Assembly (NCBI RefSeq): GCF_001625195.1
Contig: NC_054390.1
Span: forward strand, 186,001 to 250,000
Source: Drechmeria coniospora
Lineage: Eukaryota > Ascomycota > Sordariomycetes > Hypocreales > Ophiocordycipitaceae
Reading direction: 5' to 3'
DNA length: 64,000 nt
The notes beneath the pieces were generated by a model. It did no database searches. It saw only the letters and a list, made by a program, of their open reading frames with translations, and was not told the DNA's origin. The position numbers and the translations under genes were made by a program. Positions 1 through 29,938 of this stretch are shown here, in pieces (position 1 is the first letter of the stretch; each line of letters starts with the position of its first letter).

Positions 1-2900
1 CTAGTATTGAAAATTATTATCATCGTCATATTAGCTCATACTACTAGCAAGACTTGCGAGGTATCCTTGTTAACCCTCCATACTGGGCAAGATGGTTTGA
101 GGCATTCATGAGGAAGGCGTCGCTGCAATTTATCCGGGACGCTAGTGGCCCTAATAGCAACAAATCGTCATTCCCTCCGACGGAAATGATATGCCAAGAC
201 GAATCGGATGGTGTCAATACCCTTGCAGCAGGAGAGGCGGCCGAGGACTAAGTTAAGAGACTCCCGATGCTATCATCTCGACCAATCGAGCTCATCGAAG
301 GTAAGCAAGAACAACAGCACCAATGCGAATGACCAGAACACACACAACGTTGTGTTGAAAGACCAACTGTACCGGGCAGCAGGCGTTTACCGAATTGACG
401 ACCTAAACTTGAGAAAGAAACAGTGAAGAAGCTGAAAGGGGCCAGCGAGCCATTGGGGATCCTCTTGATCAAGCAACGACTGGATAAATTGCCTACTAGA
501 AGTAGTGGACCCGTAATAACTGCTGTAAGGTAGTGCAAGCAGCTGGTAGGACCAACCCGATTGACTGGTATTGGCAACGGGAATCAGCGGTTTTCCGTAC
601 GGTCGAATGGTCGATCCAAGCCGTCGAAGATTTTGGGATCAATTACTTGCTCGCCGCAATGGTAAGCCTCTATTGTAATGAGACCAAGATTTAGCGAATC
701 ATGATTGCAGAATCAGGTAATTGACGACTCTCGAGTATCGAGGGGAACTTTTCCTCGCGGACCGTGAAGCGGGATAGAGCCCAAGTACACGATCGAACGC
801 AGTGCCCGTGCCTTGACCGAAGTGTACATAATTGTTTCCTGCAGACAACATACCGCAAGATCCTAACAGCCTTTCCCATACTCGTCCTAGCTATTGTTAC
901 GTTTACCTACGGTAACGACAGCGACCTCTACTATCTATCCTCCTACCCAGCGAGAACCCCCCTTGCAGCGCTAGGTACGGCGTTAGAGCGTCTACCTTGA
1001 GTTGCCTCACTCTACAACAAGGGAGCCAACCGGAGGAGCAGGACGAGGACGAGGAATCACTCGGCAATACCTCTGTTGCTTTATAGGAACGTTCTCTTGC
1101 AATCTCTGGCCAGAGGCACATTGGACCGTAGCTCGCTATTGAATCGGCAATACTTGCTTGAGAGAATAACACCTCGATGGCCAAATTCATCGCTACGCAA
1201 GGTAGTACAAAAGGTAGGATCCATGACCGACCCTTATCATGAGCATTGCCATGCAGCTATGGGTCTTTCGCCATTCACCCGTTGGGCGCCGCCACATTCC
1301 GGCACAACATTCTAGGGTGCGCATTTTACAAGAGCTGGATTGAGCGAGCCGATTGCGGCTACTTATCCACTCTCGCACAACGATGAGACTTTCTCCTAAC
1401 GATAGTGTTTCCGCTTACAAAGCTACGGCTGCTGCCCTGCCCTGCCTGTTCTTACCTCGCAATGCCTTTTGCCTCCTGCTGCCTCGTCCAGCGAGCTCGT
1501 AAAGGACAAGCCGCAACGGAAGCCAATGCAGGCCAGGGTTTAAGTCTAGTTGTCCAAGGCGGCTAGGCTGATGCGTAGCCGGCCGGGATGCGCATCCTGC
1601 TGCAGAACAAGGTTCGATGCAACTACCGCAAGGGTTCATGCGTCCGTAGCCCCACGTCAACTCGCCCCTTTTGGACGTCAACTCGGTCCCTCTACACTAT
1701 ATCGTCAACGCTGCTTTGCACAGCCCAAGTGCCGAGGGAGAGCATCCCAAGGATACAAACAGAGCCGACGCCGATAGAGCCGCCCGTAGAGCCGGCCTTG
1801 GTTGGAGCGGTGCTGCTAGCATTCGTTCCTCGCCCAAGCCCCCCCCCCCCCCCTGTTGTGCCCTCGCATCGTGCCTCCGCATCGTAGCAGTAGATCTCGG
1901 GCGTCTTGCACCTCAGTAAGACATACGATGCATGCCCGGGTAGCTGGTCGGGAAATAGTATTCCGGGTAGCTGGTCCGGACATAGTATCTAAGCATATTT
2001 GCGCCTACCTATGCGGGGTCGGAACGGCGGCGCCCTTGACCGGGTGGCTTGTCAATAGAAAGTATACTGCCTTCGGAATGCGCTATACTCGCTGAAGTAA
2101 ATAATGCTGGGAAGGGTTAAACAGACGCTCGTAAATTCAACGCCGGCGCGGGGCATCGTACTACATGGCACAACGCACTCGTACGATGCACTCGCGCGAG
2201 GCCAAACCTTACTGTTCGGAAGGACGGGGTGCGCTTGGCCTGTACAAGCCAGACAGCCGTAGTAGTACGCGGCCGAGGCAATAGTCGCAGTGCTAGTAGC
2301 GAGGACAAGGTATCGGTATGCGCTGGATACGCACCCGTAGAGGATTCGTCGATTCGTCTGGCATCGACTGCCGATATTTAGGTGCGGTATTGTATTCATC
2401 GACCAGCCCTCCTCCACTATGCTCTGTTGCTAAGTTCTTTGATGCGACCGGCGGAGGTATGGTGTGCACTCGCATTACTCGGCAGAGGCAGTGGGGTCCA
2501 TCTCCTCGCGCATATCCGGGCCGTAGTCTCTCCTTTCTGCTGCTGCGAGGAAGATATCTGTTGGCGATAACTACGGCAGGCTTGCTAGAGATGCGGGCGG
2601 AAAACGAGTGGCGCGATCGGAGTCTCTGCTCGACGATGTCAACGACAACGGCGACTTATAAGTACATATGTTGTAATTGTAGTACGCCTTCGGGCACTGT
2701 AAGTAAGCGCTTGGGAAACAAGTGCTTGTGCAACTACATGTACTATATAGTGCCGAGCTCTTTACTCATTACACTACAGCCGGTACGAAGTACTGAACTG
2801 TCCATATAAAACTTCCCCTCAGCACGAGTATATGTAAGTGCTTGACCGCATCAGCACCTATTGGGATTACTGCATAGCTCCGCGTTTGTACGCAGCAAGG
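1..2900. other. Gene-poor region with no convincing gene
   Basis: Mixed-composition DNA. All open frames are short (163 codons or fewer), overlap on both strands and show no protein family I recognise. A poly-C run lies near 1842-1853. Decayed coding sequence is possible, because some frames read like degenerate protein, but nothing could be identified. Confidence 0.5.
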
Positions 2901-3072
2901 AACAACAACACGCTGTACAAGTACGGAGTAGCGGATGCATGTATTATATGTATATATATAGTATAACACAGAGGCCCTTACGCGCTCTGCAAGTACCTCA
3001 ATATCAACGGTACGGAATGCTTCAAAAGGGACGGAGTACTTGTTATTGCTTGACATGCTGTGCAGAACATAT

Positions 3073-3232
3073 TGTTGGTTCGGTTCTGGGGGAAACTGGT
3101 AACAAGAGATCTCTTCTAATGGATTCAATTTGGTACGAAAGGAGGGAAAAGAGGCTGCCCCTGAGCGGCCACTTTTATCCTCTCCGTAATCGTGCCCCAC
3201 ACGATTACGTGATCCTAGTCTACTATTGGCCA
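3073..3232 (+). mobile_element. Solo LTR, family B
   Basis: Starts TGTTGGTTCGG and ends in CA. It is one of four related copies in the window (others at 4074-4220, 7138-7302 and 21476-21639). The TG...CA ends and short length fit a solo LTR or a miniature LTR element. No clear target duplication is visible around this copy. Confidence 0.6.
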
Positions 3233-3255
3233 CTATATACATATAACACACACAT

Positions 3256-3365
3256 ATCATACAACAAGATAGTCACGTATGTGGAACATCGATAAGACTG
3301 GTAGAAATCCTTGTCTTGAGTAAAGATGTGGGAATCATATCCCCTATATATACTATAATACAACC
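3256..3365 (+). repeat. Dispersed repeat C
   Basis: About 100 bp that matches, in reverse orientation, the sequence at 29126-29225. It shares blocks such as ACAAGATAGTCACGTATGT and GATAAGACTGGTAGAAATCC. It is also distantly similar to the tandem unit at 21749-22612. Its nature is unknown. Confidence 0.6.
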
Positions 3366-3834
3366 TTATTGTACGGAGTATAGGTACAGCCGTATAAGGT
3401 GGGTCTCCTCCTTTACCTATCTGTTTGACCTATATTGGTGGCTGTAACATGGCTGTAACCTTAACTGTATACTAGATAATGGTAAGGTCCATCCAACAGA
3501 ACACAAGTGTACTGTAAGTACCACGTGGCGGTGCCAAACTATGGTGCGAACGGCGCCAGGCATGCTGAAGTCCAGAATAGAAACATACTTATGTACAATA
3601 CTCCGTACATGTACCTGGGTACAGAGAGGACGGTATTTAAGTAAGTACGTGCCCCCAAGTACAGGTACTGACAATACTTGAGAGTACTTGCTACGCACAA
3701 GCACTGTGCCTTTTGAAAAATATTCAACAAAGTAAACTACATGTACTATGTAATTAGTTGTAAACCTTCACCTGCTTCCGTATGCACTTGTACCAACTAA
3801 GTCTACCAGTTGCATATACCAACTATGCAACTAG
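3366..3834. other. AT-rich spacer, no gene seen
   Basis: Contains GTAC-rich low-complexity sequence and two exact copies of the 9-mer TACGGAGTA or its complement (3372-3380, 3599-3607). No supported coding sequence. Confidence 0.5.
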
Positions 3835-4073
3835 CAGTATGACTCAACCAGAGTATTTGGAACTGCGTTGCGTGCAAGCAGATTGTTCGGAGATGCATTG
3901 TGTGGAAGCAGTCGGAATTCCAACACGTACACATTATACTAATTGAGGTACTACCTCACAGGTTTAAAATAGTCCTACCTTTCCTACACTCCTAGATAGG
4001 AATAATAAGAATAAGCAAGTCTTTTTATCTGAATCGCATTATGGCACTACTGTGTGTTGGGTGTAATATATAG

Positions 4074-4220
4074 TGACCAATAGTAGACTAGGATCACGTA
4101 ATCGTGTGGCGTACGATTACGGAGAGGATAAAAGTGGCCCTCTTTTCCCTCTTTTCGTACCAAAATTGAATCCATTAAAGAGATCTCTTGTTACCAGTTT
4201 CCCCCAGAACCGAACCAACA
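4074..4220 (-). mobile_element. Solo LTR, family B, inserted in a copia LTR
   Basis: Reverse-oriented copy of the element at 3073-3232, ending in the complement of TGTTGGTTCGG. It sits between two blocks that are contiguous in the other family-D LTR copies, which supports insertion. No clean target duplication was seen. Confidence 0.6.
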
Positions 4221-4350
4221 GCCAGCCAATCTACTACTGCTGTACGACCTACACAAGTAGTATCAAGTCAATCACTTAAGCAAATTGATCGAGTTACCAA
4301 TTGTCATGCTCTCAACTGCTACTAGCCGTTGCCGGCCAGGAGTACTACTA

Positions 4351-4640
4351 CTTACAATTCAAACTGTAAATCAGGCAATCTGCCGTACGGTGCAGTAAAC
4401 TAGCTATCGGATCTGACAGGTCACGTATACGTATATGTACAAGACCATCCACGTACTATTACGGACTTATAAATAGCCACATTCCCATGTAGTCTACTTA
4501 CAATTCAAACTGTAAATCAGGCAATCTACTGCATGGTGCAGTAAACTAGCTATCGAATCTAATAGGTCACGTACACGTATAATAAAAACCATCCACGTAC
4601 TATTACGTACATATAAATAGCCACCTTCCCTTGTAGTCTA
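4351..4640 (+). repeat. Two-copy tandem repeat, period about 146 bp
   Basis: Both copies begin CTTACAATTCAAACTGTAAA (4351 and 4497) and carry the same blocks, including GGTGCAGTAAACTAGCTATC and CCATCCACGTACTATTACG. Confidence 0.85.
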
Positions 4641-4794
4641 CTTAATAGAATAATCACATTCGTTTGTACAATTCGACATACCTAAATTTGCACTCTTGCC
4701 CAGTTACTAACTGGTGCCCATTTTGCTGTTACTAACAGCTTGATTGATTCTCTGGTCCGTGCGATACACTTCCACTACCCCTACTTCTTGCGCA

Positions 4795-5145
4795 CATATC
4801 AACCTTTAGCTTGAGAAATTTCACGGGGACATTCATCATGGCCCTCAAATCGATTTGGTTTGTAGATACTAGCTTTTCCAATACCTTATTTGGCTGTACC
4901 TTTGTTATTGCGTCGGCTGGGTTATTGCTACCGTTAATCCAACGGATTTCAGATATCTCCTGTCTCTCGTAGCTTTATCGTATTTCCATAATATCGATTA
5001 TTAACCTTTTCTCTACAGTTAATCCTAGTTTAACTAGACATTCGTATAGCGAATACGAATCTATACACATAACAAGGGGGATATTGGGTATCTGTAATTG
5101 GCTAGCGATTGTATTGGCTGTTTGGGTTCAAATATAGGAATACTC
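4795..5145 (-). pseudogene. Ty1/copia-like RNase H fragment
   Basis: The minus-strand frame reads as the C-terminal RNase H domain of a copia polyprotein. Visible motifs are PLVMCIDSYSLYECLVKLG, EKRLIIDIM and EIRWINGSNNPADAITK, the last being the characteristic end of Ty1/copia RNase H (I-x-W-I-x-G-x-x-N-P-A-D). One in-frame TAA follows IMEIR and fits a CAA to TAA change, the direction expected of repeat-induced point mutation. The 3' end runs into the family-D LTR. The rest of the element upstream is not recognisable. Confidence 0.8.
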
Positions 5146-5345
5146 TTCAACAGAAGAATACTAAGTTAGACTTATTTTAGCAACAAGAGCGGCCCGGGGC
5201 CGTAAGGGATAACGCAATGAATGCCCTTATTAAATAGTAAGGCTACGAATAACCAACCTGGGAGCTACTAGAGGCCCTTGCATAAATAGAAGCCTTAGAG
5301 GAGTTTATACAATAATAGGGAGATCCATATATAAACAGTAGAGCG

Positions 5346-5505
5346 TGTAAGGCGCGCTATAGGCGTGTAGGCCTTATAAGCGAATGTGAGGTGCAGTACC
5401 CGTACTAAGTGCGGATACTGGCGGATCTTTTGACAGTTTGGCCATTTGGTCTAACGGTTAACTGGTCTATTGTCCATATGGGCACACCTCCCAATATGTG
5501 TTACA
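5346..5505 (+). mobile_element. 160-bp solo LTR, family C
   Basis: Starts TGTAAGGCGCGC and ends TGTTACA. It is one of three copies of exactly 160 bp (others 25858-26017 and 27027-27186). No target duplication is visible here, but one copy has a perfect one. An internal stretch (TGGTCTAACGG, near 5450) resembles a tRNA A-box; no B-box or cloverleaf follows. Confidence 0.7.
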
Positions 5506-5660
5506 AACTCTTTATTGTGTGCAGCAACTCCTACGCGTCCTTGTAGTAGAAGTACTCCGTTGGCTCGCTGTATACTTCCGAGAACTAGAAGGGCTAGGCC
5601 GGGTTCCATATTAGGTTAAGGTAGCCGGCAATATTTTGGATATAGTTGGACATAACTCTT

Positions 5661-5900
5661 GCAATTTGGGTGCGCAAGAAGTGGGGGTAGTGGAAGTGTA
5701 TCGCACGGACCAGGGAATCAATCACGCTATTGGTAACAGCAAAATGGGTGCCAGTTAGTAACTGGGTAAGAGTGCAAAATTGGGGGTGCCAAATTATACA
5801 AACGAATGCGATTATTCTATCAAGTACAGTACAGGAGAAATGGGACTATTTATGCCTGAGAGGTAGTACCTCGACAACCTTGTATACCTGGGTCGAGACC
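5661..5900 (+). mobile_element. Partial LTR, family D
   Basis: Inverted relative to 4645-4790. It carries the purine-rich stretch AAGAAGTGGGGGTAG and then TGGAAGTGTATCGCACGGAC, the likely polypurine tract and LTR start. The downstream end is unclear. Confidence 0.55.
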
Positions 5901-6463
5901 ATAACTACCGTACTAATTTACTATACCGGGGGGCGAGGTTGTGTATATCAGTAAGGAGATACCCCGCCTTATAGTAAAGACAGTGCATCTCAAGCCGTAG
6001 TATAATACGCTCTAGAATATAGTAGCCGGCTGCCTCCTGCTATTGGACAAGCTCCTTGTATTGTTGGACTCGGGCCTGCCCGAAATCCTCCCAGAAGGTT
6101 AAAGGGTGCAGGGCGCCCCCGTTATAATTAACAGCGCCGTATAAGTAGAGGCAACTTACCCTAGGATCGACCGATGCATCTAACTTTGCCCTTACGGAGC
6201 CAACCCAGTAACTCGTCCGCTGGCTCGTTAACCTTAGGAACAGTATACGTATCGAGGTCGGCGGGCTAGGCTTGCATACTAGCGATCTCGTAGGCTGCCA
6301 GGACGGCCCGACGGACGCTATATAGCTTGCCTACAATACTAACTCGACGAACAAGGACAATAAGGACAAAAAGTTCATAACGTTAATGCGCCCTAATACC
6401 TTCAAGAAGAAGAGGGCGGACTAGAAGGTAGTAGACTATAGCAGGCCCCTACCAGCCGCTGGT
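5901..6463. other. Probable retroelement remnant, unidentified
   Basis: Moderate GC, no open frame of note and no recognised protein motif. Its position between LTR fragments suggests decayed internal retroelement sequence, which is inference only. Confidence 0.3.
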
Positions 6464-6637
6464 TGTTACGGAGTCGCTAGGCGACTGCTCTAGGACTCTC
6501 AATGATATTTATTAAAAGACTTGAAGAAGGGAAAACTACTTGACAGTTAGGGCTTCTAGTTTATGTGCGTTCCTCCAGTGGGTCCGTTAGTCCCTCCATC
6601 TTGTGTCCCATATCGGGCTAAGCCCGATACCATAACA
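6464..6637 (+). mobile_element. Solo LTR, family A
   Basis: Starts TGTTACGGAGTCGCTAGGCG and ends in a palindrome (TATCGGGCTAAGCCCGATA) followed by CCATAACA. It closely matches 22800-22971 and, inverted, 28946-29119. The flanks GCTGG/GCTGA hint at an imperfect target duplication. Confidence 0.75.
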
Positions 6638-7137
6638 GCTGAGGAGACTATTGTACATCCCTTTTCAAGTAGACTGTTATAATACTAGGCTTTGCCTAAT
6701 ACAGCTATGTCCTAGGACAGAGTCACGTGCTACTGTACGTGACTTGCACCCTATGACTAAGCAGGCATTGGAGTATAAGTACTCTAATGCTTGTACTTCG
6801 AGTTAGAGTTCTGTAGATTTCTTAACAACTATTTCCGACCACTAGATACTGGTAGTACTAGTGACTCCATAACATAGACGAGGAATGGGCGAGCTTTAGA
6901 GGGCTTGCAAGCAAGATACTAAGGAGCAGCATGCGTTTTATTCAGCTAAATAATTATCGAATGTATGTATTTATATTTTATTGTATAGTTGTTGTACTCC
7001 GTAAAGGTAATAATAATATTGTATAAGTAATGCGTTTTATTGTACGGAGTAAGCGCGACGCGTTCAGGAAGTAGTAAATAATGCTTATATAATACTATTG
7101 TAATGTTACTTAGATGCACGGGTACCCGTGCGCCTAT
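6638..7137. other. AT-rich spacer, no gene seen
   Basis: No supported coding sequence. Two exact TACGGAGTA-type 9-mers lie at 6995-7003 and 7043-7051. Confidence 0.5.
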
Positions 7138-7389: not shown

Positions 7390-10300
7390 TTAACAATCTG
7401 ATGGATAATACAATCCATTCTGAGAATGTGATGCTGCGCCCCCAGGAGGTTGAATACTGAATTCCAACCCAGTATTGTATCTATTATTACCGTAGACTAC
7501 CCTAAGTGGATAATATTGGTCCTGTTGCATATAAACCGTAAAGCATTGGGGTATATTGATAAAATATGCCCCCCTGGCGGTAACCCTTGGATTTGTATTT
7601 ACGGGTAATCTGGTCTCACAATCAAACGCGTACTCATCACCAAAAAAGACGTTGACCTCTGCGTCAGCCCATGCGCACAGAGTAAACGTCCCGCTAGAAG
7701 GCGCCTTGTAAAGTCCTTGGTATACCAAGGTAAAATTGTTACCATCAATACCAGTAATGGTGCCTGTATTAAAATTTCGTGTGTAACCAACATAGTACTC
7801 CAAGAATGGATATGAGGGATGAGGGTGGATAATAGGATATTTTACAACGTCTGGAATATAGTCCTGTGCAAAATAAATAATGTTTGTGTAAGAGCTAGCA
7901 ATTGGAGTATCCCCAAAATAGTAGTTAGGTCCGGAAACAACGCATGCTTCTCCAGAGGCTGTACAGCCAAGGCCACCAACAAACTGATTTTTATAGAGCA
8001 TGACATTTAGTCCCAGAGCCGCACATGAAGGCTTAGGTAAATTGGATTCATCAACATTTCGTGTCTGACAAGGAGCGTATGGAACAGATGTCATGACCAG
8101 AATAGTTGTAGTGCAAGGACGACTGCAGTTTGGTGCTGGAGTAACGGTAGAAGTTGTAGCCTTGGCACCCGGAACGGTTGTAGTAATAATTACATCGGGA
8201 GGCTGCGAAACAATAACGCTAGTTGTGCACGGGTGCGTACAGTCCACTGGAGGCGTTATTGTATTTGTAATTACAACTGTTCCAGTAGTTACTGTTATCG
8301 TAACAGCAACATCCGCAGGTTGCGTAATTATAATATTGGTAGTACATGGTTTTGTACATCCAGCCGACGGCATAATCGTTAGAGTGCCGTAAACTGTACC
8401 AGTGGTAATAGTTGTCGTAATTACAATATCGGCAGGCTCCGAAATAATAACGCTAGTTGTGCAAGGGTGCGTACAATCTACCGGGGGAGTTATGGTCTTT
8501 GTAATCAGTACTGTTCCAGTAGTTACTGTTGTCGTAAAAACAACATCCGCAGGTTGAGTTATTATAATACTAGTAGTACACGGTTTTTCACATCCAGCCG
8601 ACGGTATAATCGTTCGAGTGCCGTACACCGTACCGGTAGTAATTGTTCTCGTAATGGCAATATCGGCAGGCTGCGAAACAATAACACTAGTTGTACACGG
8701 GTGCGTACAATCCACTGGCGGCGTTATTGTGTTTGTAACTACAACTGATCCAGTAGTCACTGTTATCGTAACAGCAACATCCGCAGGTTGCGTAATTATT
8801 ATGCTAGTAGTACAAGGTTTCGTACATCCAGCCGACGGCATAATCGTTAGAGTGCCATAAACTGTACCAGTAGTAATTGTGCTCAGAATAGCAACATCGG
8901 CAGGTTCCGAAATAATAACGCTAGTTGTGCACGGGTGCGTGCAGTTCGTTGGCGGCGTTACAGTCCATGTACCCAGCTTTGTTCCACCAGTTACTGTTGT
9001 CGTCAAAGCGATATCCAAGGGTTGCCTAATAATAACACTAGTCGTACAGGGAGGTATACATGCAGACGACGGCAAAATCGTCAGAGTTTCGTAAACCGTA
9101 CCAGTAGTAATTGTAGTGGTAATAGCAATATCGAGAGGCTGCGAAACAATAACGCTAGTTGTGCACGGGTGCGAACAATCCGCCGGCGGCGATATGGTCC
9201 ATGTACCCAGGGTTGTTCCACCAGTTACTGTTGTCGTAACAACAATATCCCTAGGTTGCGTAATCATTACAATAGTGGTACAAGGATGAGTACATTCCGC
9301 CGGGGGAGTAATAGTACTAGTGCCTATAACGGTCCCGGTTGTAATAGTTGTGAAAATAATAGTATCAAAAGGAATTACAACAATAACGGAGGTAGTGCAA
9401 GGGTGTATGCAGCCAATTGGTGGTGTTACTGTAGTAGTGCCCGGAATACTTCCGGGGGTGGTAACCGTCGTAATCCCTCCCGTCTCTGTAACGAAAATCG
9501 TAGTAAGGCAATTAGCTATGCATCCTGAGGATGGTAGAATAGTGCTTGTACCAGGACTTGGACCTAACGTTGTTTGCGTAGTAATGCCACCAGTTGCAGT
9601 AACAATAATTGTAGTAACGCAATTCGCTGTGCATCCTGATGTCGGTGGGATAGTGCTTGTACCAACAGTTGGACCGAAAGTTGTTTGAGTAGTAATACCA
9701 CCGGTTGCAGTAACAATAATCGTAGTAACGCAATTGGATATACATCCTGACGTCGGTGGGATAGTGGTTGTACCAACAATTGGACCGAATGTTGTTTGAG
9801 TAGTAATACCACCAGTTGCAGTAACAATAATGGTAGTAACGCAATTGGCTGTGCATCCTGAAATCGGTGGGATAGTGCTTGTACCAACAGTTGAACCAAA
9901 TGTTGTTTCAGTAGTGATACCGCCAGTTACAGTAACAATAATCGTAGTAACACAATTGGCTGTACATCCTGATGTTGGTGGGATAGTACTTGTACCAACA
10001 GTTGGACCGAAAGTTGTTTGAGTAGTAATGCCACCAGTCCCAGTAACAATAATCGTAGTAACGCAATTGACTGTGCATTCTGACGGTGGTAGGATAGTGC
10101 TAGTACCAGCAGTCGGGCCCAATATTGTTTGAGTAGTAATACCGCCAGTTGCAGTAACAATAATTGTAGTAATACAATTTGATGTACATCCTAGCGGCGG
10201 TAGGATAGTGCTTGTACCAACAATTGGACCGAAAGTTGTTTGAGTAGTAATACCACCAGTTACAGTAACAAAGATCGTAGTAACGCAATTCGCTGTGCAT

Positions 10301-13300
10301 CCTAACGGTGGTGGGATGGTGCTAGTACCGGCAGTCGGGCCCAATGTTGTTTCCGTAATAATACCGCCAGTAGCAGTAATAATAATTGTAGTAATGCAAT
10401 TTGATGTACATCCAAGCGGCGGTAGTATAGTGCTTGTACCAACAGTTGGACCGAATGTTGTTTGAGTAGTAATACCACCAGTCGCAGTAACAATAATCGT
10501 AGTAACGCAATTAGCTATGCATCCTAACGGTGGCGGGATAGTGCTAGTACCAGCAGTCGGGCCCAATATTGTTTGAGTAGTAATACCACCAGTTGCAGTA
10601 ACAATAATTGTAGTAATACAATTGGATGTGCATCCTGATGTTGGTGGAATAGTACTTGTACCAACAGTTGGACCGAATGTTACTTGAGTAGTAATACCAC
10701 CCGTCGCAGTAACAATAATCGTAGTAACGCAATTGACTATGCATCCTGACGGTGGTGGGATAGTGCTAGTACCGGCAGTCGGGCCCAATGTTGTCTCTGT
10801 AATAATACCGCCAGTTGCAGTAACAATAATTGTAGTAACGCAATTGGCTGTGCATCCTGATGTCGGCTGGATAGTGCTTGTACCAACAATTGGACCGAAA
10901 GTTGTTTGAGTAGTAATACTACCAGTCGCAGTAACAATAATCGTAGTAATGCAATTAGCTGTGCATCCTGACGGTGGTGGCATAGTAGTAGTACCGGCAG
11001 TCGAGCCCAGTGTTGTTTCCGTAATAATACCACCAGTTGCAGTAACAATAATAGTGGTAATACAATTCGATGTACATCCTGGAGTGGGTGTAATAGTGCG
11101 TGTACCAATAGTTGGACCGAATATTGTTTGGGTAGTAATACTACCAGTAGCAGTAACAATAATTGTAGTAACGCAATTGGCTGTGCATCCTGGCGATGGT
11201 GGGATAGTGCTAGTACCAGCAGTCGGGCCCAATGTTGTTTCCGTAATAATACCGCCAGTTGCAGTAACAATGATTGTGGTAATACAATTCGATGTGCATC
11301 CTGGCAGCGGTGGGATAGTGCTTGTACCAATAATTGGACCGAATGTTGTTTGAGTAGTAATACTACCAGTTGCAGTAACAATAATGGTAGTAACGCAATT
11401 GGCTGTGCATCCTAACGGTGGTGGGATAGTACTAGTACCGGCAGTTGGGCCCAATATTGTTTCCGTAATAATACCGCCAGTTGCAGTAACAATGATTGTA
11501 GTAATACAATTTGATGTACATCCTGGCGGCGGTGGTATAGTACTTGTACCAAAAGTTGGACCGAATGTTGTTTGAGTAGTAATACCACCAGTTGCAGTAA
11601 CAACAATTGTAGTAACGCAATTCGCTGTGCATCCTGACGGTGGTGGGATAGTGCTAGTACCAGCAGTTGGGCCCAATGTTGTTTCCGTAATAATACCGCC
11701 AGTTGCAGTAACAATGATTGTAGTAATACAATTTGATGTACATCCTGGCGGCGGTGGTATAGTACTTGTACCAAAAGTTGGACCGAATGTTGTTTGAGTA
11801 GTAATACCACCAGTTGCAGTAACAACAATTGTAGTAAGGCAATTCGCTGTGCATCCTGACGGTGGTGGGATAGTGCTAGTACCAGCAGTTGGGCCCAATG
11901 TTGTTTCCGTAATAATACCGCCAGTTGCAGTAACAATGATTGTGGTAATACAATTCGATGTACATCCTAGCGGCGGTGGGATAGTGCTTGCACCAACAAT
12001 TGGACCAAATGTTGTTTGAGTAATAATACCGCCAGTTGCAGTAACAACAATTGTAGTAATGCAATTGGCTGTACATCCTGACGGTGGTAGGATAGTACTA
12101 GTACCGGCAGTCGGGCCCAATGTTGTTTCCGTAATAATACCGCCAGTAGCAGTAATAATAATTGTAGTAATGCAATTTGATGTACATCCTAGCGGCGGTA
12201 GTATAGTGCTTGTACCAACAGTTGGACCGAATGTTGTTTGAGTAGTAATACCACCAGTCGCCGTAACAATAATCGTAGTAACGCAATTAGCTATGCATCC
12301 TAACGGTGGCGGGATAGTGCTAGTACCAGCAGTCGGGCCCAATGTTGTTTCCGTAATAATACCGCCAGTTGCAGTAACAATAATTGTAGTAATACAATTC
12401 GATTTACATCCTGGCGGCGGCGTGATAATGGTTGTACCAACAGTTGGACCAAATGTTGTTTGAGTAGTAATACCGCCAGTTGCAGTAACAACAATTGTAG
12501 TAACGCAATTCGATGTGCATCCTGACGGTGGTGGGATAGTGCTAGTACCAGCAGTTGGGCCCAATGTTGTTTCCGTAATAATACCGCCAGTTGCAGTAAC
12601 AATGATTGTGGTAATACAATTCGATGTACATCCTAGTGGCGGTAGTATAGTGCTTGTACCAAAAGTTGGACCGAATGTTGTTTGAGTAGTAATACTACCA
12701 GTTGCAGTAACAATAATGGTAGTAATGCAATTGGCTGTGCATCCTAACGGTGGTGGGATAGTACTACTACCGGCAGTTGGGCCCAATGTTGTTTCCGTAA
12801 TAATACCGCCAGTTGCAGTAACAATTATTGTAGTAATACAATTTGATGTACATCCTGGCGGCGGGGTGATAATGGTTGTACCAACAGTTGGACCAAATGT
12901 TGTTTGAGTAGTAATACCACCAGTCATAGTAACAATAATCATAGTAACGCAATTGACTGTGCATCCTGCCGGTGGTAGTATAGTCCTAGTACCGGCTGTC
13001 GGGCCCAAAGTTGTTTCCGTAATAATACCTCCAGTTGCAGTAACAATAATTGTGGTAATACAATTCGATTTACATCCTGGCGGTGGTGGGATAGTGGTTG
13101 TACCAATAGTTGGACCGAACATTGTTTGAGTAGTAATACTACCAGTCGCAGTAACAATAATTGTAGTAACGCAATTGACTGTGCATCCTGATGGTGGTGG
13201 GATAGTGCTAGTACCGGCAGTCGGGCCTAATGTTATTTCCGTAATAATACTACCAGTTGCAGTAACAAGAATTGTAGTAACGCAATTGGCTGTGCATCCT

Positions 13301-16300
13301 GATGTCGGCGGGATAGTGCTTGTACCAACAATTGGACCGAATGTTGTTTGAGTAGTAATACCACCAGTCGCAGTAACAAGAATCGTAGTAACGCAATTAG
13401 CTGTGCATCCTAACGGTGGTGGGATAGTGCTAGTACCGGCAGTCGGGCCCAATGTTGTTTCTGTAATAATACCACCAGTTGCAGTAACAATAATTGTAGT
13501 AACGCAATTGGCTGTGCATCCTGATGTCGGCGGGATAGTGCTTGTACCAACAATTGGACCGAATGTTGTTTGAGTAGTAATACCACCAGTCGCCGTAATA
13601 AGAATTGTAGTAATGCAATTGACTGTGCATCCTGACGGTGGTGGGATAGTGCTAGTACCAGCAGTCGGGCCCAATGTTGTTTGAGTAGTAATACCACCAG
13701 TTGCAGTAACAATAATTGTAGTAATACAATTTGATGTACATCCTAGCGGCGGTAGGATAGTTCTTGTACCAACAATTGGACCGAATGTTGTTTGAGTAGT
13801 AATACCACCAGTTACAGTAACAATGATCGTAGTAACGCAATTCGCTGTGCATCCTAACGGTGGTGGGATAGTGCTAGTACCAGCAGTCGGGCCCAATGTT
13901 GTTTCCGTAATAATACCGCCAGTTGCAGTAATAATAATTGTAGTAACGCAATTTGATGTACATCCTGGCGGCGGTAGGATAGTGCTTGTACCAACAATTG
14001 GACCGAAAGTTGTTTGAGTAGTAATACCACCAGTTACAGTAGCAATGATCGTAGTAACGCAATTCGCTGTGCATCCTAACGGTGGTGGGATGGTGCTAGT
14101 ACCAGCAGTCGGGCCCAATGTTGTTTGAGTAGTAATACCGCCAGTTGCAGTAACAATAATTGTAGTAACACAATTTGATGTACATCCTGGCGGCGGTGGT
14201 ATAGTGCTTGTACCAACAATTGGACCGAATGTTGTTTGAGTGGTTATACCACCAGTCGCAGTAACAATCATCGTAGTAACGCAATTAACTGTGCATCCTG
14301 ACGGTGGTGGGATAGTGCTAGTACCGGCAGTCGGGCCCAATGTTGTTTCTGTAATAATACCGCCAGTTGCAGTAACAATAATTGTAGTAATACAATTAAA
14401 GGTACATCCTGGTGGCGGTAGGATAGTGCTTGTACCAATAATTGGACCGAATGTTGTTTGAGTAGTAATACCACCAGTCGCAGTAACAATAATCGTTGTA
14501 ACGCAATTGACTGTGCATCCTGACGGTGGTGGGATAGTGCTAGTACCGGCAGTCGGGCCCAATGTTGTTTCTGTAATAATACCGCCAGTTGCAGTAACAA
14601 TAATTGTAGTAATGCAATTTGATGTACATCCTAGCGTCGGTAGCATAGTGCTTGTACCAACAGTTGGACCGAATGTTGTTTGAGTGGTAATACCACCAGT
14701 CGCAGTAACAATCATCGTAGTAACGCAATTAACTGTGCATCCTGACGGTGGTGGGATAGTGCTAGTACCGGCAGTCGGGCCCAATATTGTTTCCGTAATA
14801 ATACTACCAGTTGCGGTAACAATAATTGTAGTAATACAATTAAAGGTACATCCTGGTGGCGGTAGGATAGTGCTTGTACCAATAATTGGACCGAATGTTG
14901 TTTGAGTAGTAATACCACCAGTCGCAGTAACAATAATCGTTGTAACGCAATTGACTGTGCATCCTGACGGTGGTGGGATAGTGCTAGTACCAGCAGTCGG
15001 GCCCAATGTTGTTTCCGTAATAATACCGCCAGTTGCAGTAACAATAATTGTAGTAATACAATTCGATATACATCCTAGCGGAGGTGGGATAGTACTTGTA
15101 CCAGTGGTTGGACCTAATGTTGTTTCCGTAGTAATGCCGCCGGTTGCAGTGACAATAATAGTTGTAATACAATTGGCTGTGCATCCTGGCGGTGGTAGCA
15201 CAGTGCTTGTACCAACAGTTGCACCGAATGTTGTTTTAGTAGTAATACCAACAGTTGCAGTAACAATTATTGTAGTAATGCAATTAGCTGTACATCCTGA
15301 CGGTGGTGGTATAGTGCCAGTACCGGCAGTCGGGCCCAATGTTGTTTCCGTAATAATACCGCCAGTTGCAGTAACAATAATTATAGTAACGCAATTTGAT
15401 GTACATCCTGGTGGCGGTGGGATAGTGCTTGTGCCAACAATTGGACCGAATGTTGTTTGAGTAGCAATACCACCAGTTGCAGTAATAAGAATCGTAGTAA
15501 CACAATTAGAATTACATCCTAACGATGGTTGGATAGTGCTAGTACCAGCAGTTGGACCAAACGTTGTTTCGGTCGTAATACTACCAGTTGCAGTAACAAT
15601 AATTGTGGTAACGCAATTCGCTGTGCATCCTAATGTCGGTAGGATAGTACTTGTACCAACAGTTGGACCGAATGTTGTTTGAGTAGTAATACTACCAGTT
15701 GCAGTAACAATAATTGTAGTAATGCAATTGGCTGTACATCCTGACGGTGGTGGGATAGTACTAGTACCGGCAGTCGGGCCAAATGTTGTTTGCGTAGTAT
15801 TACTACCAGTTGCAGTAACAATAATCGTAGTCACACAATTGTCCGTGCATCCTAGTGGTGGTGGGATAGTACTTGTACCAGCGGTTGGACCTAATGTTGT
15901 TTGAGTAGTAATACTACCAGTCGCAGTAACAAGAATCGTAGTAACGCAATTAGCTATGCATCCTAACGGTGGCGGGATAGTGCTAGTACCAGCAGTCGGG
16001 CCCAATGTTGTTTCCGTAATAATACCGCCAGTTGCAGTAACAATAATTGTAGTAATACAATTCGATGTACATCCTGGCGGCGGCGTAATAATAGTTGTAC
16101 CAACAGTTGGACCAAATGTTGTTTGAGTAGTAATACCACCAGTTGCAGTAACAACAATTGTAGTAACGCAATTCGCAGTGCATCCTGACGGTGGTGGGAT
16201 AGTGCTAGTACCAGCAGTTGGGCCCAAAGTTGTTTCCGTAATAATACCGCCAGTTGCAGTAACAATGATTGTGGTAATACAATTCGATGTACATCCTAGC

Positions 16301-19300
16301 GGCGGTGGGATAGTGCTTGTACCAACAATTGGACCGAATGTTGTTTGAGTAGTAATACCACCAGCTGTAGTAACAACAATTGTAGTAACGCAATTGGCTG
16401 TGCATCCTGATGGTGGTGGGATAGTACTAGTACCAGCAGTTGGGCCGAACGTTGTTTTCGTGGTAAGACCTCCAGTTGTAGTAACAATAATCGTAGTAAC
16501 GCAATTCAATATGCATCCTAGTGGCGGTGGGATAGTACTAGTACCGGCAGCTGGACCGAATGTTGTTTCCGTAGTAATAACACCAGTTGTAGTAACAATA
16601 ATGATAGTGATGCAATTGGCAGTGCATCCTGGTGGTGGTGGGATAGTGCTTGTACCGGCAGTTGGACCGAGTATTACGACAGTGCCAAAGCTACCTGTAT
16701 CGGTAACAATAATCCTTGTAATGCAGTTAGCTGTACATCCTTCTTGTGGTGGGATTGTGCTAGTCCCAGCAGTTGGACCGAATGTTGTTTCGGTAGTAAC
16801 ACCAGCAGTGGCAGTAACAATAACCGTAGTAACGCAATCGGCTGTACATCCTGGCGTTGGGGGAATAGTGCTTGTTCCAATAGTCCGACCAAACGTTGTT
16901 TTGGTTGTATTACTACCGGTTGTGGTAACAATAATTGTTGTTACGCAATTGCTTGTGCATCCCGGCGGTGGTAAAACAGTACTCGTCCCAGCTGTTGGAC
17001 CGACTGTAAAGACAGTGCTGAAGCCACCTGTGGCGGTAATAATTATAGAAGTAATGCAATTGGCTGTGCACCCTGAAGGCGGTGGGATGGTGCTAGTACC
17101 GGCTGTCGGACCAAAAGTTGTTTTAGTTATAATACTACCAGTTCTAGTAATAATTATTGCTGTAATGCAATTTGCTGTGCATTCTTCTGGTGGTGGAATC
17201 GTACTAGTACCAGCAGTTGGACCAAATGTTGTTTCCGTAGTAATACCACCAGTTGCAGTAACAATAATTGTAGCAACGCAATTTGCTGTGCATTCCGCTG
17301 GTGGTGGGATGGTACTAGTGCCAATGGCTGGACCAAACGTTGTTTTCGTCGTAATACTAGCACTTGCAGTAACAATAATCGTAGTGATGCAATTGTCTGT
17401 GCATCCCGGCGGTACTGGAATAGTGCTTGTTCCAGCTTTTGGACCGATTGTGAACACGGTGGTAAAGCCGCCTGTAGCGGTAACAATGATTCTAGTGAGG
17501 CAGAATCCGGTACACCCAGGTGGGGGCAAAATAGTGCTGGTACCAGTTGTTGGCCCAAAGGTAGTCTCCGTAATGATACCTCCAGCGGGAGGTTCAGTAA
17601 CAATAACTTGTGTATAACAGTTTACTTTGCATTCCGGCGGCGGTGGAATAGTGCTTGTCCCAGCAGTTGGACCTATTGTTGTGACAGTCCTAAGGCCGCC
17701 TGTAACGGTAACAATGATTCTAGTGGGGCAGAATCCGGTACACCCTGGTCGGGGCAAAATAGTGCTGATACCAGTTGTTGGCCCAAAGGTAGTCTCCGTA
17801 ACGATACCTCCAGCGGGAGGTTCAGTAACAATGACTTGTGTATAACAGTTTACTGTGCATCCCGGCGGCGGTGGAATAGTACTCGTCCCAGCAGTTGGGC
17901 CGAGCGTTGTAACAGTGCTAAGTCCGCCTGTAGCGGTAACAATGATTTTAGTTGGGCAGAATCCGGTACACCCAGGTGGGGGCAAAATAGTGCTGGTACC
18001 AGCTGTTGGCCCAAAGGTAGTCTCCGTAATGATACCTCCAGTGGGAGGTTCAGTAACAATGACTCGTGTATAACAGTTTACTGTGCATCCCGGCGGCGGT
18101 TGAATAGTACTTGTCCCAGCAGTTGGGCCGACCGTTGTAACAGTGCTAAAACCACCTGTAGCGGTAATTATAATCCTTGTAACGCAGTTAGATGTGCATC
18201 CTGGTGGTGGTGGAATAGTGGTAGTCCCACTTGTTGGGCCGAATATTGTTTCCGTAATAACACCTCCAGCAGGTTCAACAGTAACAATAATCTGTGTAAA
18301 ACAGCTCACTGTGCATCCTGGGAATGGTAGAATGGTACTCGTTCCAGCAGTTGGTCCGAATGTTGAGACAGTTCTAAGGCCTCCTGCAGCGGTTACAACA
18401 ATTCTAATAGGGCAGAATCCGGTACAACCAACAAAAGGCAAAATAGTAATGGTCCCAGCAATTGGACCAGGGGTGGTCTCGGTAATAACACCTCCAGTAG
18501 GCTCTACAGTTACAATAATTTGCGTATAGCAGTTCACTGTGCATCCTAGTGGTGGTGGAATCGTACTCGTCCCAGCAATTGGACCATAGGTGGTTGTAGT
18601 AGAAACACTTCGTGTATGCTCTACAGTAACAACAATCAGTGTATAACAGTTTATTGTGCATCTCGGCGGTGGTGGAATAGTGCTTGTCCCTGCAATTGGA
18701 CCGAATGTTGTTACAGTACTATAGCCGCCTGTGGAGGTAATAATAATTCTAGTCGGGCAGAATCCGGTACACCCAGGAGAGGGCAAAACAGTGCTGGTCC
18801 CAGCAGTTGGACCAAAAGTGGATTCAGTAATAACACCACCACTTGGGGCTATAGTAATAATAATTTGTGTATAGCAGTCTACTGTGCATCCCGGGGATGG
18901 TCGAATGGTGCTCGTCCCAGGATTTGGTCCGAATGTTGTTACAGTTCTATAGCCTCCTGTGGTGGTAAAAATAATTCTAGTAGGGCAGAATCCGGTACAC
19001 CCAGGAGAGGGCAAAACAGTACTTGTCCCAGCAGTTGGACCAAAAGTGGATTCAGTAATAACACCACCACTTGGGGCTATAGTAATAATAATTTGTGTAT
19101 AGCAATCTACTGTGCATCCCGGGGATGGTGGAATAGTGCTCGTCCCAGGATTTGGTCCGAATGTTGTTACAGTTCTATAGCCTCCTGTGGTGGTGAAAAT
19201 AATTCTAGTAGGGCAGAATCCGGTACACCCAGGAGAGGGCAAAACAGTACTTGTCCCAGCAGTTGGACCAAAAGTGGATTCAGTAATAACACCACCACTT

Positions 19301-20384
19301 GGGACTATAGTAATAATAATTTGTGTATAGCAGTCTACTGTGCATCCCGGGGATGGTGGAATGGTGCTCGTCCCAGCAGTTGGGCCGTACGTTGTAATAG
19401 TGCTGAGGCCGTCTGTAGTAGTTACAATTATCCTTGTAGGACAGCTGCTAATACACTCAGAGGATGGTGGAATTGTACTGGTACCGGCCGTTGGCCCATA
19501 TGTGTATTCTGTAGTATATCCAGCCGTAACGGTCACTATAATTCGAGTCGGACAGTTGCCAGTACAGCCTGGTAGTGGGGAGATTGTACTTGTGCCAGGT
19601 ACAGGTCCATAGGTTAACTGGGTTATTCTTCCACCGACTTGCGTAATAATAATTTTTGTTGGACAGTTTCCTTGACACCCAGGTGGTGGCTGAATCGAAC
19701 TCATACCAGGCGTTGGTCCAAATGTTGTCTCGGTAGTATATCCACCTTTTAGCGACTCTACTAATGTTGGTTCGACAATAACGACAGTTCCTGTCTTAAA
19801 GGTTCCTTTTGGTTCTTGTGTAATAGTCCACCCTAGGGATCCCGTTCCTTTGCTTGTAATAGTCGTATACTGGCCGGTAAATGTTGATTTCGGTTCGACA
19901 ATAATTATCGTCCAAATCTTATCCGTAGTAGAAGGTAGTATTAGCAGCTTAATAGTATTCGTGCTAGTTCCAACTGCAGTAATAGTTGTATATAATCCTG
20001 TAAATATTTGCTGTATTGCACTCGGCTCTATTACTATAATCGTTCCTGTTTTCCCTATTCCCGTTGGATTCAAAGATATTGTAGATAATACAGTTCCTGT
20101 ACCAACGGCAGTAATTGTAGTAAATTGTCCTGTAAAAGTGTTCGAATCTGGATACGAAGTGTATGTTCTAAAACCTATTTTAGCAATAACATTCTAGGAG
20201 GAACGATATCTACCCTAACCGTATCATACCGAGTACTATAGCTTTGTATTGTTGTGCTGGAGCATATTATTTCAAAGGGCTGAAATTCAACAAATACTGT
20301 CCCTTCATCTTCTTGTATCGCTCCATAAGTAAAATTTGCAAAGAACGTAAGGAGGGCGAATCTTGCTAAGATTTTGATATTCAT
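7390..20384 (-). CDS. Giant repeat-rich secreted adhesin with C-terminal GLEYA-like domain
   Basis: Two exons, 20230-20384 and 7390-20167, are joined across a 62-bp intron (20168-20229: donor GTATGA, branch-like GCTAAAA, acceptor TTTTAG). The product is about 4,310 residues. Residues 1 to about 21 form a signal peptide (MNIKILARFALLTFF...). Then come a few flocculin-like Thr-rich units (TGQFTTITAVGTGT), about 92 units of 37 residues (consensus FGPTAGTSTIPPPSGC then TANCVTTIIVTATGG), and about 12 variant units (CTHPCTTSVIVSQPAD). The last 225 or so residues look like a GLEYA/PA14 lectin domain: GLYKAPSSGTFTLCAWADAE, VNVFFGDEYAF, YYPLRVVYG and GLEFS in the GLEYA position. No GPI signal is visible. 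The frame is open for 12.8 kb inside decayed transposon DNA, and its base composition is much more AT-rich than the housekeeping genes. An in-frame ATG at 20492 is an alternative start. Role inferred: cell-surface or extracellular adhesion. Confidence 0.85.
7393..8060 (-). other. C-terminal GLEYA/PA14-like domain of the adhesin
   Basis: Encodes the only non-repetitive part of the protein. It has several Cys residues, an aromatic-rich beta-sandwich-like pattern, and the motifs WADAEVNVFFGDEYAF and YNTGLEFSI. Family knowledge: GLEYA and PA14 domains in yeast adhesins bind glycans and are usually N-terminal; here the domain is C-terminal. Confidence 0.7.
8075..9430 (-). repeat. Adhesin repeat type 2 (about 12 units of 38-39 residues)
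   Basis: Units contain C-x-x-P-C (HPC, KPC, PPC or RPC) followed by TTSVII, then QPADVA and TTTVTTGTV. Two subtypes alternate: THPC units with TITPP and KPC units with TIMPSAG. Confidence 0.85.
9431..19720 (-). repeat. Adhesin repeat type 1 (about 92 units of 37 residues; 111 bp, paired as 222 bp)
   Basis: One C-x3-C pair per unit (TANC, TSNC, TVNC, TGFC). Over much of the array two subtypes alternate (TLGPTAGTSTIPPP and TFGPTVGTSTILPP), giving a 222-bp higher-order period. For example, equivalent sequence recurs at 13430, 13652, 13874 and 14096. Units near the 19-kb end (CTVDC/CTGFC) form a separate, more diverged subarray. Confidence 0.9.
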
Positions 20385-21748: not shown

Positions 21749-22612
21749 ACAAATTCAAAGTTCAATAATGCAGTAGATAATGTAGGATCCGCCCTGACCG
21801 CAGTATTAACAAACTCAATATAGGAAAATCAACAAGATAATTACTTTCAGGAGTTTCGATAAGACTAGTGTAAATCATTATTCTATTAAGTGGGTTAGAA
21901 CCGTATCCCTTATATCATCTAACTAGTTACTGGAGGGTTGGCTTTCCGACCTTACTCTATAGGTACAATTGTAAAAGGTAGGCCAAATTTAAAGTTCAAT
22001 AATGCAGTAAATAATAGGGGATCCGCTGTAACTGCAGTACTAACAAACTCAACGTAGGAAAATCAACAAGATAGTTACTGTCAGGAGTTTTGATAAGACT
22101 AGTTTAAATCATTCCCTTGTTAAGTGGGTTAGAACCGTATCCCCTACATTATCTAACTAGTCACTGGGGGAGTAGCTCTCCGACCTTACTTTATAAGTAC
22201 AATTGTAAAATGTAGGCCAAATTTAAAGTTCAATAATGCAGTAGATAATAGGAGTTCCGCTCTAACTGCAGTACTAACAAATTCAACGTAGGAAAATCAA
22301 CAAGATAGTTACCTTCGGGAGTTTTGATAAGACTAGTTTAACTCATTCCCTTGTTAAGTGGGTTAGAACCGTATCCCCTACATTATCTAACTAGTCACTA
22401 GGGGAGTAGCTCTCCGACCTTACTTTATAAGTACAATTGTAAAATGTAGGCCAAATTTAAAGTTCAATAATGCAGTAGATAATAGGAGTTCCGCTCTAAC
22501 TGCAGTACTAACAAATTCAACGTAGGAAAATCAACAAGATAGTTACTTTCAGGAGTTTTGATAAGTCTAGTTTAAATCATTCCCTTATTAAGTGGGTTAG
22601 AACCGTAACGAT
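21749..22612 (+). repeat. Tandem array, about 232-bp period, 3.7 copies
   Basis: Each unit begins near AAAGTTCAATAATGCAGTA (21749-21770, about 21986, 22218 and 22449) and contains CAACAAGATAGTTAC, GATAAGACTAG and GTGGGTTAGAACCGTATCCC. The last copy is truncated. It shares spaced blocks with dispersed repeat C (3256-3365, 29126-29225). Confidence 0.85.
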
Positions 22613-29125: not shown

Positions 29126-29225
29126 CACAATAGTATATATAGGGGATATAATTCCCATACACTTACTCAAGACAAGGATTTCTACCAGTCTTATCCATAT
29201 TCTACATACGTGACTATCTTGTTAT
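29126..29225 (-). repeat. Dispersed repeat C, abutting the stop codon of the secreted protein gene
   Basis: Inverted match to 3256-3365. The similarity appears to start at the last codons and stop (ATCATATAA) of the gene at 29222-29938. Confidence 0.6.
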
Positions 29226-29938
29226 ATGATATCCCCTGTCGGTAGACGACGTTCATCTACTTTTTGTTTCCTTCGTCTAGCTTTTTCTTGTTTAGTTAGC
29301 GCTTGTGCTTGTTTTTCTGCTGCGTTTCCTTTTTCTCGGGCTGCTTGATTTCGTTGATTTTGGGCATTTTGTTGATTTTGTGCACTTTGTTCATTTTGGG
29401 TTTGTTGTCCATTTGTAACCTTGTCGATTTTCGTTCGTAACTCCGGATTCTCATCTAATTGTTTTGCAATATTTTCGATCTCGTTATTGATGTCAAGGCC
29501 CGCTTGACTTTCCGATTTAGGTGTACCATTGAATTTTTTAATAAGATCCCTCGCATACTGTACGTAATTCTCGTCTGCTTTATCCGCAACAAGGACCGGA
29601 ATCATCGCAGTATCCTTTAGCTGGTCTTTGAAGACATATAACCGTCGGTTATCTAACGAGAAATAAATTGTACCAACCTGTACAACTCGTATTTTATCAA
29701 ACCCGGTTTCTTTTATTTTGTCGCCATCTCCCGTAGTGATTGTTTTAAGCTTGTTGATAGTGTCGAAGACAGTTCCCAATCTCGTGTCCGACCAGTATTC
29801 ATTTATTGTTTTTTGGCTAAACCTAATGGAAGAAAGTTGTAATTCCGTTTCTATTGTCCCTTTGGTAAATGTAAAAGGGATCGCAAGAATGCCACTAAGC
29901 CATAAGGCAATAATAGAAAGAGCATAAGTAGTCCTCAT
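29222..29938 (-). CDS. Secreted 238-residue protein, effector or toxin-like candidate
   Basis: One uninterrupted frame from ATG to TAA. Residues 1 to about 19 form a signal peptide (MRTTYALSIIALWLSGILA). Residues 33-130 form a compact domain with SSIRFSQKTINEYW, KIRVVQVGTIYFSL and LDNRRLYVFK. From memory of such motifs this resembles a ParB/sulfiredoxin-like or bacterial polymorphic-toxin C-terminal domain with a conserved DNRRL; this is a resemblance, not a demonstrated homology. Residues 175-205 are Q/N-rich repeats (QNQQNAQNQ). The tail is highly basic (KQEKARRRKQK), which could act as a nuclear localisation or nucleic-acid-binding segment. It lies among LTR remnants, is AT-rich like the adhesin, and keeps an intact frame where its neighbours are broken. 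Function is unknown. Confidence 0.7.
   Translation of the reverse strand: MRTTYALSIIALWLSGILAIPFTFTKGTIETELQLSSIRFSQKTINEYWSDTRLGTVFDTINKLKTITTGDGDKIKETGFDKIRVVQVGTIYFSLDNRRLYVFKDQLKDTAMIPVLVADKADENYVQYARDLIKKFNGTPKSESQAGLDINNEIENIAKQLDENPELRTKIDKVTNGQQTQNEQSAQNQQNAQNQRNQAAREKGNAAEKQAQALTKQEKARRRKQKVDERRLPTGDII

Follow-up and report, generated by a model that had tools for sequence, protein, structure and literature searches.

Does the long open stretch at positions 7390 to 20384 (minus strand) of a 64,000-nucleotide window from the fungus Drechmeria coniospora encode a real protein, and what would such a protein do? The window, by which we mean the whole stretch of DNA analysed, corresponds to G000:C2:186001-250000 in a genome of 32,831,003 bases on 28 contigs, the three large ones measuring 12.54, 10.20, and 9.75 Mb. 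In the published assembly of D. coniospora ARSEF 6962, a nematode endoparasite whose conidia are adhesive, the chromosomes are inferred to number three, at 12.5, 10.2, and 9.8 Mb, and add up to 32.5 Mb (PMC4792172). The stretch holds a two-exon gene of 4,310 residues, and its product is probably a secreted cell-surface adhesin of the fission yeast GLEYA type, with a signal peptide, ALS/flocculin-like units, a Thr-rich stalk of 104 units, and a C-terminal GLEYA lectin-type domain. The gene is composed of the following parts.

20230..20384, minus strand: exon 1, encoding the signal peptide and a short conserved segment (VEFQPFEIICSS type), from the ATG, the open frame, the hydrophobic stretch, and recurrence in the genome
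20168..20229 (alternative 20175-20236), minus strand: predicted 62-bp intron, GTATGA...TTTTAG, from the best donor of 7 and from paralogs by eye
19678..20167, minus strand: about three ALS/flocculin-like units of about 40 residues each, FTGxYTTIT type, with PF05792 below its cut-off
9412..19677, minus strand: C-x3-C repeat units 1 to 92, of 37 or 39 residues, from motif spacing, unit types, and dN/dS
8092..9411, minus strand: units 93 to 104, a second type of 39 residues (CTHPCTTSVII...), the last incomplete, from motif spacing and unit types
7393..8091, minus strand: 233-residue C-terminal region lacking a hydrophobic tail of the glycosylphosphatidylinositol (GPI) type, from Pfam and hydropathy
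7450..7734, minus strand: GLEYA domain PF10528 overlapping a PA14 match, PF07691, from Pfam

An ATG at 20384 joined across a 62-bp intron gives 4,311 codons counting the stop. The exon 2 frame (20193-7393, minus strand) runs for 4,267 codons with 0 stops, compared with 130 and 132 stops in the other two frames of the same strand and 103, 72, and 767 in the antisense frames. The initial annotation had proposed a single minus-strand gene of about 4,310 residues here, and the frame agrees with it. The intron GTATGA...TTTTAG (20229-20168) has the best donor among 7 listed candidates of 40 to 150 bp, and its position matches that in the paralogs by eye; a second 62-bp candidate (20236-20175, donor GTACTC) would leave the gene length identical. 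The exon 2 frame is 27.4% Thr, 5.6% Ser, and 5.1% Cys. The signal peptide, called by eye and hydropathy, reaches a maximum 12-residue Kyte-Doolittle value of 2.04, and with a similar exon ahead of the paralogs this part of the initial annotation stands as well. In the last 30 residues the maximum is 0.24, against 2.04 in the signal peptide, and a GPI signal is judged absent by hydropathy only.

An open frame is weak evidence of coding in a tandem array because the unit is a multiple of three and because an antisense frame of 2,357 residues lies inside the array of one paralog. Openness was therefore rejected as the only proof of coding. Purifying selection acts on the repeat units: the mean heterozygosity among 83 units of 37 residues was 0.151, 0.150, and 0.372 at the first, second, and third codon positions, and the pooled Nei-Gojobori dN/dS over all pairs of these units, which are not independent, was 0.28. 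The dN/dS of the C-terminal domain against its nearest paralog was 0.31, and that between two tandem GLEYA copies of another gene was 0.42. A search of the genome with exon 1 gave 29 matches at E <= 0.01; these include exon 1 itself and one copy with an internal stop. A similar signal-peptide exon stands, by eye, ahead of all 10 giant frames whose DNA was read, and in the paralog at C3:311685 the frame stays open from the signal-peptide exon into the array.

The third-codon G+C of the adhesin gene is 0.27. Positions 1-31000 of the window have a composition resembling that left by repeat-induced point mutation (RIP), with TA/AT of 1.27 to 1.36, a substrate index of 0.80 to 0.92, and a G+C of 0.40 to 0.46; the values for 31001-64000 are 0.71, 1.01, and 0.62. 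Active RIP has been reported for the D. coniospora genome (PMC4792172), and long intact repeats in such a genome call for explanation.

The array contains 104 C-x3-C motifs, whose 103 spacings are of 37 (83 times), 39 (19 times), or 38 residues (once). Most of units 1 to 92 belong to the CTxNCxTTIIVTATGG or the CTGFCPTRII type; units 93 to 104 are of the CTHPCTTSVII type, the 104th being incomplete. The earlier estimate of roughly 104 repeats, divided as 92 + 12, is thus matched by the motif count and the two unit types. In the main run, 71 of 73 units are distinct at the DNA level, and the longest exact repeat within the gene is 176 bp. Units an even distance apart have similarities of 0.85 to 0.86, and those an odd distance apart 0.785 to 0.797, a dimeric pattern; the value is 0.86 for units two apart and 0.785 for neighbours. 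Distinct units, short exact repeats, and this pattern speak against an assembly echo as the source of the array, although the exact copy number depends on an assembly that combined short and long reads, built from Velvet contigs with PacBio gap filling and an optical map (PMC4792172).

The N-terminal units had been described as flocculin-like. Their nearest family is the ALS repeat PF05792, but the match (2.9e-4, 21.6 bits) falls below the cut-off of 25 bits. In a paralog at C1:170956-182280, 760 residues matched PF05792 at 3.2e-41 and 139.9 bits in 16 stretches (limit E <= 10). The 37-residue C-x3-C unit, which the initial annotation could not name, matched no Pfam family above cut-off, and four repeats found no match among PDB sequences at E <= 10. 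Weak Pfam matches were put down to chance, namely, a 10-residue Defensin_2 stretch in the repeats (18 of 20.4 bits), FUR across units 93 to 104 (15.2 of 23.1 bits), DGC, and mTERF in a piece of a paralog (19.1 of 23.1 bits). For four units, with 39 window rows, the best AlphaFold model had a predicted local distance difference test score (pLDDT) of 68.9 and the four others lay at 34 to 49, and Foldseek on the four-unit model gave a best E of 0.045 with a template modelling score (TM-score) of 0.16. The model was set aside as uninformative beyond its beta-rich character.

The C-x3-C unit resembles an ALS-like unit whose loop carries a cysteine pair. An hhalign comparison of the two covered 21 columns with a probability of 49%, and BLASTP gave an E of 2.2. 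With a hidden Markov model (HMM), the best match scored 18.4 bits, above the maxima of 16.7 bits in 200 shuffles and 14.4 bits in 200 unit-column permutations. Ranked on total score, the match was equalled or exceeded by the reversed sequence and by 18 of 200 permutations, but by none of the 200 shuffles. The register is common to the matches of hhalign and the HMM, with homology unproven.

The GLEYA/PA14-like end proposed by the initial annotation is borne out by Pfam scores above cut-off. GLEYA (PF10528) matched at 9.9e-16 and 58.3 bits against a cut-off of 26.2 (53.2 bits within the whole exon 2 frame), and PA14 (PF07691) matched at 34.9 bits against a cut-off of 24; no other Pfam family was found in the whole exon 2 frame at E <= 0.1. 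The GLEYA match stops 19 residues ahead of the stop codon. The sequence relatives in the PDB are the PA14-type adhesins Epa9, Cea1, Flo5, Epa1, Epa6, KpFlo2, and Flo1, with 20 chains matched at E <= 1 by the single sequence and 21 at E <= 0.001 by a profile. The GLEYA family is defined by a G(M/L)(E/A/N/Q)YA motif (PMC8621652). Its place here reads GLEFS, with F for Y and S for A, and it is degenerate in the other 14 aligned domains; all 64 genome matches to PF10528 pass the Pfam cut-off.

The adhesin is one member of a large family. Searching the genome with its C-terminal domain gave 58 matches. PF10528 gave 64, all above cut-off and distributed over 41 distinct frames, of which 3 show stops within the match, and PF07691 gave 55. 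At least 37 distinct open frames of at least 2,000 residues (2,089 to 6,916, counted stop to stop) carry family repeats, ALS repeats, or GLEYA. The repeat searches scored the best 150 of 1,760, 150 of 803, and 127 of 1,003 candidates, so the family counts are lower bounds. Among the giant frames listed, 23 have a GLEYA match and 14 do not, at least 20 are of at least 4,000 residues, and the longest has 6,916. The adhesin ranks 12th by length among the at least 37 listed. The extreme size claimed for it therefore stands in relation to well-studied yeast adhesins, which have 600 to 2,500 residues (PMC6023273), but not within its own genome.

The DNA was read for 10 of the 37 giants, the adhesin included; the other nine were picked from the 58 matches to the C-terminal domain, a choice that ensures a GLEYA domain in each. 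Every one of the 10 is free of stops, with 3,368 to 4,695 residues and 34 to 104 C-x3-C motifs, and none has a strongly hydrophobic tail (maxima of -0.11 to 1.32, versus 2.04 for the signal peptide). Several giants have two to four GLEYA copies. The 14 GLEYA-less giants have 2,763 to 5,508 residues and include frames at C1:11.56 Mb, C2:6.95 Mb, C1:12.24 Mb, and C3:0.56 Mb; four of the 14 (3,512, 4,215, 4,651, and 2,788 residues) are known from ALS-repeat matches only. Their C termini may hold a different binding domain, or an intron or frame break ahead of the domain could account for the absence of GLEYA.

Some members stand out by size or place. The largest of those listed, at G000:C3:~582-603 kb, has 6,916 residues with repeats on both sides of GLEYA and a first-exon match at C3:582847-582990. 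Next to the adhesin gene and just outside the left edge of the window, at G000:C2:168-184 kb, a frame of 4,948 residues matches GLEYA four times and the first exon of the family at C2:183392-183541. Contig C7:1-8.5 kb repeats the adhesin matches of C3:7333-7350 kb with identical scores and is possibly an unplaced duplicate of the C3:7.34-7.35 Mb locus.

The giants are concentrated toward contig ends: 25 of the 37 listed lie within 0.5 Mb and 31 within 1 Mb of an end, compared with 9.2% and 18.5% of the sequence, respectively, although neighbouring frames are not independent. Chromosome flanks of about 0.5 Mb carry species-specific repeats (PMC4792172). We tentatively propose, as a conjecture with less than even chances, that these dense repeats are largely a giant adhesin repertoire of at least 37 genes of about 2,100 to 6,900 residues, whose repeat modules are interchangeable and which carry one to four GLEYA domains. 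Turnover by recombination would then yield diverse cuticle-binding or self-recognition proteins, and the GLEYA-less giants would end in a further, undescribed domain.

An adhesin role is consistent with the sequence features of the gene described above. We infer secretion, glycosylation, wall attachment, orientation, ligand, expression stage, and length change by recombination along the following lines. The chain would be exported and O-glycosylated, and its repeat part, lacking a GPI anchor, would be lodged in the wall or on its surface. To judge by its length, the stalk would extend the C-terminal domain far past the wall, where the domain would bind carbohydrate, with the nematode cuticle or sister cells as the most likely surfaces. 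Recombination among repeat units that share the reading frame would alter the stalk length. Conidia of D. coniospora adhere to nematodes and infect by sticking to the cuticle (PMC4859500); because of this and because the GLEYA layout is that of fission yeast, we favour an adhesin of long reach whose likeliest role is host attachment. The giant family may help explain the adhesion of spores to worms. The GLEYA protein DCS_00041 is upregulated in conidiogenesis and infection (PMC4792172).

Several observations weigh against a carbohydrate-binding adhesin. An AlphaFold model of the C-terminal region, built from a two-row alignment, is poor, with a pLDDT of 39.9. In the structure-based check that had been suggested for this part, the first 20 Foldseek matches are all Cea1, KpFlo2, Epa, or Flo chains, with TM-scores of only 0.30 to 0.39, and the agreement adds weak extra support for the GLEYA/PA14 end because Foldseek also uses sequence and the model is poor. 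The published data also describe most D. coniospora-specific proteins as low expressed and none of 10 ALS genes as highly transcribed, and name one of nine GLEYA proteins as highly expressed (PMC4792172).

The calcium site also departs from the yeast pattern, which is a DcisD plus an Asn (PMC8621652, PMC6308950). We aligned 15 domains, of the 58 genome matches, from 12 frames and transferred the site positions via the Epa9 alignment. The first Asp is present in all 15 domains. The second Asp of DcisD is Ala in the adhesin and, over the 15 domains, is Asp in 2, Asn in 7, and Ala in 6. The Asn of the second loop, which we take by Epa1 numbering to be the Asn of the signature, is retained in 13 of 15 domains, the adhesin included. 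The adhesin thus reads D-A + N in place of the DD-N signature of Ca-dependent PA14 lectins. Yeast-type calcium-dependent sugar binding is not assured because the second Asp is Ala; sugar binding via the altered site is plausible on the pattern of residues.

Other explanations of the locus have to be weighed against this reading. The orientation could be the reverse, with GLEYA binding the fungus's own wall glycans as an anchor and the repeat array forming a sticky outer layer or matrix. The lack of a strongly hydrophobic tail in the 10 giants read and the beta-rich, low-confidence four-repeat model would suit such an arrangement, which we nevertheless regard as unlikely: in fission yeast, the C-terminal part of Map4 is exposed on the outer surface of the wall (PMC6023273), and two to four GLEYA copies in several giants fit binding avidity as well as anchoring. 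A second explanation, which overlaps in part with host attachment, is that of a flocculin serving only adhesion between hyphae or between conidia, or kin recognition. It too has a low probability, since the lifestyle requires conidia to stick to nematodes (PMC4859500, PMC4792172), even though the Flo and Pfl relatives work in cell-cell adhesion (PMC8621652, PMC13147542) and a big, divergent family near chromosome ends suggests recognition diversity.

It is far less probable still that the stretch is mostly silent or decaying DNA in which a stop-free 111-base unit remained open as it was copied. The 0 stops in the coding frame versus 72 to 767 in the others, dN/dS values of 0.28 and 0.31, and the recurrence of exon 1 and the intron among paralogs all argue against decay, although the 2,357-residue antisense frame in one paralog array, the AT-rich, RIP-like composition, and the stops inside the match in 3 of 41 GLEYA frames count in its favour. 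A long-reach GLEYA adhesin is accordingly the reading that we prefer.

Around the gene, the window shifts abruptly at about 31-34 kb from the AT-rich flank to GC-rich DNA, where the frame at 33151-33822 presumably encodes a BolA-like protein. A tandem array with a 234-bp unit (3.7 copies, 92% matches) lies upstream of the adhesin gene at 21750-22607. A 238-residue frame at 29222-29938 (minus strand), also in the AT-rich flank, has a signal-peptide-like start and a Gln/Asn-rich later part.

Relatives elsewhere were sought in a set of 5.8 billion proteins, taken as fungus-poor. No giant relative was found at E <= 0.001 among 280 candidates for the C-terminal part or among the best 1,491 candidates for the repeats. 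Of 2,269 candidates screened with a profile of 15 C-terminal domains, a single one matched: P0001, a protein of 340 residues that has a C-terminal GLEYA and, by eye, a start resembling a signal peptide and a stretch rich in T/S. Because the set is judged poor in fungi from this single match, absence outside D. coniospora is not claimable. A plasmid search gave no match, and the best E in an NCBIfam search was 0.15. In the accessible portions of PMC4792172, PMC4859500, PMC7500977, PMC10512298, PMC8621652, PMC6308950, PMC6023273, PMC3828140, and PMC13147542, with subscription papers and supplements outside this scope, no description of a giant GLEYA family or of the C-x3-C unit was found. The kind of protein is known, and the variant and scale appear to be new to the literature searched.

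D. coniospora is extensively used in studies of Caenorhabditis elegans immunity (PMC7500977), and the adhesion molecules of its conidia on nematodes are unsettled in the literature examined (PMC4792172). Published counts are nine GLEYA and ten ALS proteins (PMC4792172); these genes probably overlap with the 64 matches in 41 frames found here. A giant GLEYA family far above the nine published supplies specific candidates for conidial adhesion, and the repeat-rich chromosome ends are suggested to hide long coding genes missed or masked in annotation.

Among known systems, Flo, Epa, Cea1, and KpFlo2 of budding yeasts have a ligand-binding domain homologous to that of the D. coniospora adhesin. 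However, their domain is N-terminal and their C terminus is GPI anchored (PMC8621652), whereas the adhesin has a C-terminal domain, no hydrophobic tail, and D-A in place of DcisD. The definition of Flo-type proteins given in PMC8621652, an N-terminal PA14/GLEYA domain with PF00624 or PF13928, does not apply, the domain being C-terminal and neither repeat family reported. The PF05792 repeat of Candida Als proteins is resembled weakly by the N-terminal units of the adhesin and strongly by those of a paralog; the adhesin has no ALS repeat above cut-off and no Als N-terminal ligand domain at E <= 0.1. BAD1 of Blastomyces shares many short two-Cys repeats, secretion, the lack of a GPI anchor, and a C-terminal binding domain, but its repeats are Trp-rich with 24 residues and its end is EGF-like (PMC6023273); no homology is claimed.

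The fission yeast GLEYA/DIPSY flocculins (Pfl, Map4, and Mam3; the family of Linder and Gustafsson) share the signal peptide, the Ser/Thr-rich repeats, the C-terminal lectin-type domain, and the lack of a GPI signal (PMC13147542, PMC6308950, PMC6023273). The wall attachment of Map4, a DIPSY relative, is consistent with a noncovalent or ester link, with the C-terminal region exposed (PMC6023273). DIPSY (PF11763) had no match in the D. coniospora genome, and the control genomes gave no match either. Unlike the fission yeast flocculins, the D. coniospora adhesin has ALS-like N-terminal units and a main repeat of 104 C-x3-C units of 37 to 39 residues without a Pfam match above cut-off. The C-terminal, GPI-less GLEYA layout of fission yeasts is now placed in a filamentous parasite, where it is large in size and number.

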